Of a stretch of 53,740 bases of DNA, positions 37,239-43,592 are shown piece by piece. The notes under the pieces were generated by a model. It saw nothing but the letters and a program-made list of their open reading frames with translations. It had not been told where the DNA came from and made no database searches. The position numbers and the translations under genes were made by a program. Source of the stretch: an uncultured Rubrobacteraceae bacterium. Lineage in GTDB: Bacteria > Actinomycetota > Rubrobacteria > Rubrobacterales > Rubrobacteraceae. The stretch covers positions 1-53,740 of the forward strand of contig CADCVE010000006.1 of assembly GCA_902806065.1 (NCBI GenBank), written 5' to 3'. Position 1 is the first letter of the stretch, and each line of letters starts with the position of its first letter.

Positions 37239-37267
37239 TTGAATTGCGTGGGTAGCGGTGTAATAAT
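37239..37267 (+). promoter_or_regulatory. Promoter of the Fe-S carrier gene
   Basis: TTGAAT (37239-37244), a 17-base spacer and AATAAT (37262-37267, five of six matching TATAAT), 46 bases ahead of the ATG at 37314. Confidence 0.55.
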
Positions 37268-37313
37268 TCCTTTAATTCGACTTATACGCTACAGCATTCC
37301 GCAGGAGGTGCTG

Positions 37314-37658
37314 ATGGATCAGAAGACAACGACGATCCTCTCGATCACAGACAACGCCGCCGAGAAGGTCAAGGGGCTAATGGAGCAGGAAGGCGAGGAA
37401 GACCTCGCGCTGCGCATCGGTGTACGGCCGGGCGGCTGCTCCGGCTTCCAGTACTCGATCTACTTCGACGACGAGATCAACGACGACGACGAGGTTATCG
37501 AGACCAAGGGCATCAAGGTGGCAATCGACGCCATGAGCATCCCGTACATCATGGGCAGCGAGTTCGACTACGTGGACGGCCTCATGGGCGCCGGCTTTGC
37601 TGTCAACAACCCTAACGTCCAGGGCGGCTGCGGCTGCGGCAGCTCCTTTACCTGCTAA
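37314..37658 (+). CDS. erpA: A-type iron-sulfur cluster carrier (IscA/ErpA/SufA)
   Basis: A 114-residue HesB-like protein that delivers Fe-S clusters to target enzymes. The three cluster Cys are present: one in RPGGCSGFQYSIYFDD and two in GGCGCGSSF near the C terminus. I start at ATG 37314 with GCAGGAGG six bases ahead. An upstream in-frame ATG at 37239 is inside the promoter. It stands alone and ends at a strong terminator. The exact subtype (ErpA or SufA) cannot be fixed from this sequence. Confidence 0.92.
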   Translation: MDQKTTTILSITDNAAEKVKGLMEQEGEEDLALRIGVRPGGCSGFQYSIYFDDEINDDDEVIETKGIKVAIDAMSIPYIMGSEFDYVDGLMGAGFAVNNPNVQGGCGCGSSFTC

Positions 37659-37683
37659 ACCAGGGATAAAAGCAACAACCGAA

Positions 37684-37720
37684 GCCCGGAGCCTCTCTTA
37701 CAGAGGCTTCGGGCTTTTTT
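37684..37720 (+). terminator. Strong rho-independent terminator
   Basis: A 13-bp stem (GCCCGGAGCCTCT with AGAGGCTTCGGGC, one G-U pair), a 5-base loop and six T. It ends the Fe-S carrier transcript and also faces the convergent ccdA gene. Confidence 0.93.
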
Positions 37721-37730
37721 CTTTCACCGT

Positions 37731-38627
37731 CTAACGTTTAGCTTTCTTCGGCCACTCCCTCTTGGTGGCAACTTCTCTGTCATCATGCGCGCCACTTGGC
37801 TTGCGTTGCCGGCGTCTGTAGGCCAAGAACATCAGTACGGCGGCGATGAGCACTACCGCGAGCACGAGGGCGTCCGGGACGCTGTTGGCGAAGGATCTAG
37901 CCCACTGCTCGGCGGTGAAGGCTACCTTGATGGCCCCGTTCTCCTCGTAGAGGCCGGAGAGGGCGGAGGTCCCTTCATAAGCTACGAATACCGTGCCGAG
38001 CAGGATGAACATGAGACCGGAGAAGAGGTTGGTTGTATGGACCTTCAGGCGGCCAATGGAGAGCTCGCGGCCGCGCAGCCAGGGGCGGCGTCCAAGGTCG
38101 AAGCGGTCCCACAGGGCGGCCAGGAGGAAGAGTGGGGCTGTCATGCCGAGGGCGTAGATCGCTAACAGCGTAGCTCCCTGCAATACGCGCCCGAAGGAAG
38201 CGGCGACGGTGAGGACAGCGCCGAGGATGGGACCGGAGCAGAAGCCCGCGAACCCGTAGACGGCCCCCAGAGCGAAGGTCGCACCCGCTGATTCCCCCCG
38301 GACCTTGCCCGCCAGGCGCGAGAGGGGGCCGAGTTCGAAGCCGCGCCCAAGGAGCTGTAGCACGCCGAGCAGGACGATAACGAGGCCGGAGACCAGGATC
38401 AGGGTGCTCCGCTGGCCGTAGACGAGCCTGCCAACGGCTGAAATCCCCATCCCCAGAGGTACGAGCGTCGCGGCGAGCCCGAGGTAGAACACGGCGGTCT
38501 TTGCGACCAGAGCCTTGCGCGATTGGAAGGCGTAGGCAAAGAAGGCTGGCAGGAGCAGGGCGCTGCACGGGCTCAGGAGCGAGAGCACCCCTCCGAAGAA
38601 CGCCGCGAGGTAAGAGACCTCAAGCAC
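37731..38627 (-). CDS. ccdA: CcdA/DsbD-like thiol-disulfide transmembrane transporter
   Basis: A 298-residue protein with about seven or more transmembrane helices. The CcdA/DsbD-type redox Cys motifs are GGVLSLLSPCSALLLPAF at the N terminus and YGFAGFCSGPILGAV in the middle. It moves reducing equivalents from cytoplasmic thioredoxin to the outside of the membrane. The GTG start overlaps the last 8 bases of the DsbA-like selenoprotein gene, so the two probably form a redox relay. The C terminus is a long basic tail. Confidence 0.9.
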   Translation of the reverse strand: MLEVSYLAAFFGGVLSLLSPCSALLLPAFFAYAFQSRKALVAKTAVFYLGLAATLVPLGMGISAVGRLVYGQRSTLILVSGLVIVLLGVLQLLGRGFELGPLSRLAGKVRGESAGATFALGAVYGFAGFCSGPILGAVLTVAASFGRVLQGATLLAIYALGMTAPLFLLAALWDRFDLGRRPWLRGRELSIGRLKVHTTNLFSGLMFILLGTVFVAYEGTSALSGLYEENGAIKVAFTAEQWARSFANSVPDALVLAVVLIAAVLMFLAYRRRQRKPSGAHDDREVATKREWPKKAKR

Positions 38628-39351
38628 CTTGGGCCTGGCTTTCGGCTTTCTGGGCTTCTTCCTCTATTATTCGCTCGAAGTCCTCCAGGGGCCACGGTCC
38701 CACCAGTCTTTGTTCGTTGATAATGAAGCTTGGGGTACCCTGTATAGCCGCGTCCTGAGCCTCTAGCAGATCCCTGCGCACGACCTCCTCGAACCGGCCC
38801 GAAGTCAGGCTGGCTTTGAAGGTCTCGGTGTCCAGGCCGAGCTCTTCAGCCAGCTGGATCAGCTTCTCTTCCGAGAAGGTTCCGCCGTTGATCGAGCGCT
38901 GGTTCTGATACAGGGCGTCATGATATTCCCAGAACATGCCCTGTTCCTGGGCCGCCCTGGCGGCCTGTGCTGCGTTTACAGACTCCTGCCCGAGGTAGGC
39001 GAAGTCTCGCCACTCTATCCTCAGCGTCCCTTCTTCGACGTATTTTTGCACCAGTTCCGGTTCCACCTCACGGGTGAATTGGCCGCAGAATCCTCACTGA
39101 TAGTCAGCGTACTCGGTCAGGACGACTGGGGCGTTCTCGTCACCCCTGCTCGGGTGCTCCAGGTCCACTGCGGCCTGTTCTCCACTCGACCCGGCGGCCT
39201 GAGACTCTCCCCCGGAGGGCTCCTCTGCCCGCTGCTTCCCGGCTGCGCCGCCGCAGGAGACAGTAGCGAGGACGAGCAGCGCGAGGCCCGCGAGTAGCGG
39301 ATAGACTCGCCTCTCTCCAACAGACTTCTTCTCTTTCAACAGATGCCTCAC
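38620..39351 (-). CDS. DsbA-like thioredoxin-fold lipoprotein with in-frame UGA (predicted selenoprotein, U-G-F-C)
   Basis: The GTG start at 39351 (GAGGAGA ahead) opens a signal peptide ending in lipobox ATVSC, then an acidic linker and a DsbA-type domain. At codon 86 the frame reads T-E-Y-A-D-Y-Q-[TGA]-G-F-C-G-Q-F-T-R-E. The TGA stands exactly where DsbA proteins have the first Cys of CxxC. Past it the same frame is open for 157 codons with an intact DsbA helical insert and cis-Pro loop (QGTPSFIINEQRLVGPWP). A SECIS-like hairpin starts a few bases after the TGA. The gene overlaps ccdA. A point mutation from TGC or TGT to TGA is the main alternative. The start codon of any shorter product (GTG 39066) would lack CxxC. 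Confidence 0.8.
39055..39090 (-). promoter_or_regulatory. SECIS-like hairpin downstream of UGA codon
   Basis: On the minus strand, 3 bases after the TGA (39096-39094), UUC and CGG pair with CCG and GAA to make a lower stem. The upper stem UUCACC pairs with GGUG(G)AA around the 5-base loop CGUGA, with one bulged G. The upper hairpin begins 16 bases after UGA, in the range of bacterial SECIS elements. The fold was worked out by eye. Confidence 0.5.
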
Positions 39352-42548: not shown

Positions 42549-43592
42549 ATGGCCCGCGTATACCGCGAAGGTGACATTGGAAACGAGATCACGCAACGTA
42601 AGGTCGCTATCCTGGGCTACGGCAGCCAGGGTCACGCCCACGCCCTTAACCTCAAGGACTCCGGCTGCGACGTAGCGGTCGGTCTCTACGAGGGCAGCCC
42701 GAGCAAGCAGAAGGCCGAAGGCGAGGGCCTGCAGGTGATGAACATCGCCGACGCCGTACGGTGGGCGGACGTGGTGATGATGCTCCTGCCGGACGAGAGG
42801 CAGCCGGCGGTGTTCAAGAACGAAGTCGAGCCGAACCTCTCCGAAGGCATGTTGATGCTCTTCGCGCACGGGTTCAACATCCACTTCAACCAGATAGTCG
42901 TGCCGCCGGAGGTGGACCTCGGGCTCGTGGCACCGAAGGGCCCGGGGCACGTGCTGCGGCGTCTGTACGTCGAGGGCAAGGGCATGCCATCGCTCTTCGC
43001 CGTGCACAATGATGCTTCGGGGGAGGCGCGGGACGTAATCCTCTCTTACGCCCGTGGTATCGGGAGCGGCCGAGCCGGCATTATCCAGACTACCTTCGCC
43101 GAGGAGACCGAGACGGATCTCTTCGGGGAGCAGGCGGTGCTGTGCGGCGGACTAACGGAGTTACTCAAGGCCGGTTTCGACACGCTTGTGGAGGCAGGAT
43201 ACCAACCGGAGCTTGCGTATTACGAGTGCGTCAACGAGCTAAAGCTCATAGTGGACCTTATTTACGAGGGTGGCCTCGCGGGGATGCGGTACTCGATCTC
43301 CAACACCGCCGAGTACGGAGACTATACCGCCGGCCCGAAGATCATAGACGAAGCCGCGAGGCAGCGGATGCGTGAGATCCTGGCAGATATCCAGACTGGC
43401 AAGTTCGCCCGCGACTGGGTTCTGGAGAACCAGGCCGGTGGGGCGAGCTTTCTGGCGATGCGTCGCCGGGAGGCCGAGCTTCAAGTCGAAAAGGTCGGGG
43501 CGGAGTTGAGGGCCCTAGCCGCCGAAGGTGTAGAGGCGTCGGCGAGCTCCGCTAGCCCAACCGCTAGCCCGACGGGAGGAGATAAACGATGA
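42549..43592 (+). CDS. ilvC: Ketol-acid reductoisomerase
   Basis: A 347-residue class I enzyme converting acetolactate to dihydroxyisovalerate. Nucleotide motif [17 protein letters not shown]. Metal and catalytic residues are in [54 protein letters not shown] and SNTAEYGD. The cofactor loop reads [14 protein letters not shown], where the usual Arg after GL is Tyr and is followed by Glu; acidic residues here are linked to NADH use. An Ala/Ser/Pro-rich C-terminal tail is extra. It overlaps ilvE by four bases. Confidence 0.95.

Follow-up and report, generated by a model that had tools for sequence, protein, structure and literature searches.

The locus

The window, that is, the whole stretch of 53,740 nucleotides analysed here, is an entire contig (C6) of the draft genome of an uncultured Rubrobacteraceae bacterium (3.75 Mb in 112 contigs). 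On its minus strand lies a gene for a DsbA-like protein, hereafter the Sec gene (Sec, selenocysteine), followed by a ccdA-like gene whose GTG start at 38627 overlaps the end of the former by 8 nt (Table 1). The Sec gene forms one frame, from 39351 to 38620, with a TGA (39096-39094) as its sole internal stop. It starts with GTG, with a candidate ribosome-binding site (GAGGAG) directly upstream at a short spacing, reads ...TEYADYQ-U-GFCGQFTREVEPEL..., and continues for 157 codons after the TGA, up to a terminal TGA (38622-38620). When the internal TGA is translated as Sec, the product has 243 residues and a hydrophobic N-terminus. Translation table 11 breaks it into two open reading frames, the first with 85 aa (39351-39094) and the second with 148 aa (39066-38620), and the gene is probably missed or truncated by annotation.

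Table 1. Features of the locus (positions are those of the window).
Feature	Position	Strand	Remark
Sec gene, exported DsbA-fold (Thioredoxin_4) protein	38620..39351	minus	Probably a lipoprotein; Sec at residue 86 (UGFC)
In-frame TGA, predicted Sec codon	39094..39096	minus	First (nucleophilic) Cys position of CxxC
Lipobox-like Cys codon	39253..39255	minus	Residue 33 (LATVSC-GG), after the hydrophobic N-terminal segment; read from the sequence
Predicted bacterial SECIS core	39058..39085	minus	Lower stem CGG/CCG; upper 6-bp stem UUCACC/GGUGGA; loop CGUGA
SECIS upper stem-loop	39062..39078	minus	Loop 39072-39068; G second in the loop, 21 nt from the TGA
ccdA-like membrane thiol reductase (DsbD_TM)	37731..38627	minus	Cys21 (SPC), Cys130 (FCSGP)
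Strong hairpin, terminator-like	37681..37717		Lies where the hesB-like gene and ccdA converge; pattern only

Read through, the protein matches Thioredoxin_4 (PF13462) with 118.8 bits for a cut-off of 23.2 (3.6e-34) and DSBA at 5.4e-21, and both matches bridge the TGA. The AlphaFold model has a mean pLDDT of 84, exceeding 90 over most of the domain, and in it we confidently recognize a predicted DsbA fold with a helical insert, a CxxC-type site and a Thr-Pro loop; T206-P207 is invariant in the homologues, the threonine preceding a putative cis-proline. The original prediction had described a single minus-strand frame with TGA at the first Cys of CxxC, a DsbA domain intact over the 157 codons beyond it and an overlapping ccdA, and each of these descriptions holds; it also expected automatic annotation to split or shorten the gene. 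Its lipobox was a more delicate matter: LATVSC is plausible by eye but non-canonical, and the cysteine is absent from some TGA-containing homologues (L023, L030 and L032).

TGA-bridged pairs of open reading frames are common in the window (94), and Cys, Ser or Thr stands in a loosely redox-like spacing in 26 of them. The Sec gene is the one pair with a CxxC-type site in a recognized domain, the homology test having been run on that pair only. As a side observation, a gene for a HesB-like iron-sulfur biosynthesis protein (37239-37658) converges on ccdA. HesB-like proteins are another family with known selenoprotein members; this one has no in-frame TGA.

TGA or a cysteine codon at the same position

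Homologues were sampled in 39 genomes of the family to which the window genome belongs. TGA occupies the identical codon in 19 genes from 18 genomes: the Sec gene, a second copy in the same genome and 17 others. That second copy (L053/L065, G000:C47:7685-8398) is 57% identical, carries UPFC with its own TGA and has the same predicted SECIS, with a ccdA-like start directly 3' of it. Cysteine (TGT or TGC) stands at the Sec codon in family genomes G010, G030, G011, G012, G017 and G027 and in the second gene of G013, as well as in four Streptomyces, two genomes of other actinobacterial families and one Chloroflexota metagenome-assembled genome. A scan of genome contigs returned as relatives only Streptomyces and one Chloroflexota. 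Among the aligned homologues no residue other than Sec or Cys was seen at this active-site codon.

A TGA is one base away from TGC or TGT, and a cysteine codon mutated, in a decaying gene, or simply misread would look much like what we see; the G013 homologue L047, where a TAG immediately precedes the CPFC, might be taken as a precedent. Yet TGA recurs at the same codon in 19 genes, and because the remaining homologues have Cys there, and nothing else, a sequencing error is excluded. Downstream of the TGA, dN/dS is between 0.21 and 0.29 when the Sec gene is compared with four TGA-containing relatives, and it is similar upstream, so that purifying selection on the protein continues beyond the TGA; no further disruption was seen in the frame, as had been predicted. 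With a conserved synonymous signal (see below) and a complete Sec machinery also standing against it, the idea of a pseudogene or an error is vanishingly improbable. From comparison of sequences, we are almost certain that the seemingly broken DsbA-like gene is intact and that selenocysteine is inserted at its in-frame UGA.

The tree of Sec and Cys homologues displays five changes of label as drawn, of which the well-supported branches force only one; repeated exchange between Sec and Cys is the likely history. Two homologues deserve a comment in their own right. L029 (G017:C161:22299-23045) is a TGC form nested among the Sec forms that keeps a SECIS-like CACCCGTGAGGTGAAACCGG, which suggests a SECIS relic left by a recent change from Sec to Cys. 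In L047/L055 (G013:C44:6936-7634), a Cys form, TAG replaces the Gln codon directly before CPFC; a genuine lesion, an error or something else could account for it.

Selenocysteine machinery

All the genes that decoding would require are found in the window genome. On contig C94, selA (TIGR00474, 500 bits for a cut-off of 267.9) overlaps selB (TIGR00475, 355 bits for a cut-off of 242), and a tRNA-Sec with anticodon TCA lies about 30 nt 3' of selB, in one cluster with the two genes. Contig C48 carries selD (L059, G000:C48:5196-6113; 359 bits), with an in-frame TGA of its own in KAGUASK, at what we take to be the usual Sec/Cys site of SelD. SelD itself is a predicted selenoprotein, and a strong hairpin, GCUCCAGGGGACCUGGAGC, lies 3' of its UGA.

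A full-length protein would also result if UGA were read by a near-cognate tRNA (for Trp, Arg or Cys), or were reassigned throughout the genome, with no selenium involved. TGA is however still in use as a terminator, since it ends the Sec gene itself and the open reading frame at 42549-43592, and genome-wide reassignment was rejected on that account. It is invariably the catalytic cysteine that is replaced, and the genome has dedicated Sec genes together with a SECIS-like element. Decoding of this kind is very unlikely.

The machinery was not recovered everywhere: tRNA-Sec was not found in 5 of the 18 TGA-bearing draft genomes (G005, G006, G013, G061 and G062), and no selB over the cut-off was found in three of these five when checked (G005, G006 and G013). 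All five drafts are fragmented, and three of them keep a TGA-containing selD. Assembly gaps are the likely cause, yet G013 is rated 98% complete.

The predicted SECIS hairpin

Over the 19 TGA-containing rows, RNAalifold draws an upper stem of 6 bp with a U-G wobble (39078-39073 with 39067-39062) closed by the loop CGUGA, and a lower stem CGG/CCG at +9 to +11 (39085-39083 with 39060-39058). The hairpin of the original prediction, with its CGUGA loop, was found again, at 39078-39062 and starting 16 nt past the TGA; in place of its bulged G the wobble is preferred, and the lower stem that it placed from +4 was not recovered there. We claim the consensus hairpin only, because single-sequence minimum free energy folds of 54 nt differ in the lower stem between homologues.

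The coding sequence at the top of this hairpin is unusually constrained. TTC-RCC-CGT-GAG is invariant, R excepted, in all 19 TGA genes. Among the 65 columns of four- or six-fold degenerate codons of the gene, excess identity at synonymous positions ranks codon +8 first (CGT in 19 of 19) and codon +7 second (GCC, 14/14), and these are the codons that sit at the top of the predicted SECIS. For comparison, an equally invariant arginine at +46 uses five codons, and CGT accounts for 3 of the 124 Arg codons beyond codon 30. Two GGT-GGT columns near the end of the gene are also over-conserved; they coincide with the overlapping start region of ccdA, which serves as an internal control.

The bSECIS model asks for a loop of 3-9 nt, a stem of 4-16 bp, a G among the first two bases of the loop, a spacing of 16-37 nt and a minimum free energy of at most -7.5 kcal/mol (PMC13188914). 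The predicted element is within the structural limits, with a loop of 5 nt, a stem of 6 bp, the G in second place and a spacing of 21 nt. On energy the outcome varies with the length folded: the value is -10.4 kcal/mol over 48 nt and -6.9, just short of -7.5, over the 28-nt core. Covariation in the stem, over the 19 TGA rows, scored the same as in shuffles, with no double-sided changes, and was dropped as proof of a SECIS because it is uninformative; a single pair varies in type, between A-U, G-U and G-C. Sliding the partners strongly lowers the pairing, in a control biased toward the structure derived. Covariation giving no support, the predicted hairpin rests on synonymous constraint and on position.

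With the machinery in place, TGA in 19 genes and a SECIS-like hairpin under synonymous constraint, the selenocysteine insertion put forward in the original prediction is borne out as far as sequence can show, the refutations it listed having failed when checked, and we regard decoding of the UGA at codon 86 as selenocysteine as very probable. SelB and Sec-tRNA(UCA) would read it, directed by the hairpin (loop CGUGA) 21 nt downstream within the coding sequence.

CcdA and the probable direction of electron flow

The product of the neighbouring gene scores 54.8 bits against PF02683 (cut-off 27.1) and has its two membrane cysteines. In the homologues examined, Sec and Cys forms alike, Streptomyces included, a ccdA-like start overlaps or adjoins the gene. 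Such a conserved neighbour implies that the protein would take electrons from the cytosol. The product of the Sec gene is best read as an exported, probably lipid-anchored oxidoreductase of DsbA/BdbD fold with a Sec-Gly-Phe-Cys active site; CcdA, proposed as the electron supplier in the original prediction, would most likely pass electrons from cytosolic thioredoxin, via Cys21 and Cys130, to the Sec protein, so that Sec86-Cys89 would be held reduced. It could act as a fast thiol or selenol reductase, or as an isomerase, outside the membrane, on oxidized proteins or other oxidized substrates.

With the same decoding, the protein could alternatively be an oxidant. The genome also codes for a DsbB-like protein (L091:1441-2049, on contig C91) with a CPLC motif and 46.5 bits to PF02600, which makes an oxidizing role possible: DsbB would keep the Sec-Cys pair oxidized for the introduction of disulfides, and the overlap with ccdA would be incidental or serve another partner. 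Oxidizing DsbA, BdbD and TsdA proteins are among the closest folds. The conserved neighbour of Sec and Cys homologues is however ccdA, not dsbB; the DsbB-like gene is on a contig other than that of the Sec gene, and no DsbA-like gene lies beside it in the 3.3 kb read. A VKOR oxidase was sought in the genome and not found. Overall, we hold the oxidant role to be unlikely.

Given that Sec is decoded, the reductive, CcdA-fed role is rather probable, as drawn from gene order and from the known role of the CcdA family. The complete scheme goes further and is offered tentatively, a little short of what we would call probable: in one actinobacterial family, a CcdA-fed extracytoplasmic selenothiol relay in which an anchored (lipid or membrane) Sec-containing DsbA-like protein, present in two copies in the genome, would reduce oxidized extracellular targets, and which would belong to a distinct (seleno)DsbA subfamily where Sec and Cys were interchanged several times. 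A mixed set of Sec and Cys forms within one bacterial family, both beside ccdA, provides a natural system in which to study the contribution of Sec to an exported thiol oxidoreductase. The present analysis extends the extracytoplasmic UxxC selenoproteins by a clade in which the CcdA partner is conserved.

Comparison with known systems

What is new is the lineage, which falls under the cut-off of current selenoprotein models; the mechanism and the kind of protein are already known. ScsC is a DsbA-fold protein that is held reduced by a DsbD-like partner. It is found among the fold matches (4gxz, 6nen, 7rgv) and offers an analogy in its working principle, a DsbA fold with a membrane partner of the DsbD family; it differs by its low identity (~21-28%), by having Cys, not Sec, and by its partner, ScsB, in place of the short CcdA found here. 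The nearest solved structures by sequence and fold (Foldseek) are TsdA/DsbA of Corynebacterium diphtheriae (7unn, 4pwp) and BdbD of Bacillus subtilis (3eu3), 24-34% identical, where the Sec site belongs to a CxxC, with Cys in place of Sec.

Among protein families, the best NCBIfam match is NF041057 (DsbG-like / Rcas_1661 thioredoxin-like (seleno)lipoprotein), which 25 of 25 aligned members match. They have in common an exported domain of the Thioredoxin_4 type with Sec or Cys first in CxxC. The score is however 139.7 bits for a cut-off of 190, and the match spans the domain only (84-246 of the 247 profile positions), so that filing the Sec gene under NF041057 was rejected. When 396 genomes from across the phylum were sampled with this model, not one reached the cut-off, and the matches outside the family of the window genome had no internal TGA. 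The current family model misses genes of this clade, which are therefore likely annotated as truncated or broken.

Among the papers searched, DsbA, CcdA and selenocysteine occur together in two, neither of which, judged by its title, deals with such a pair. Proteins of the NF041057 kind, with UxxC, appear as DsbG-like in PMC13188914. As stated in the original prediction, UxxC is known in this kind of protein: DsbA-like and DsbG-like selenoproteins with that motif were reported in 2005-2006 (PMC1088965, PMC1794560), and the latter lists Rubrobacter xylanophilus with five selenoproteins. The relevant sections of the surveys of the Sargasso Sea, of GOS and of bacterial genomes (PMC1088965, PMC1794560, PMC2398784) describe DsbA-like selenoproteins (PF01323, UxxC) that resemble the present one, by description and not by sequence, in having UxxC in a DsbA fold and a bacterial SECIS directly after the UGA; those sections make no mention of the present actinobacterial clade or of the pairing with ccdA. 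With NF041057 as its best match, yet under the cut-off, the Sec gene joins the known UxxC kind as part of a clade that lies outside the reach of the current model.
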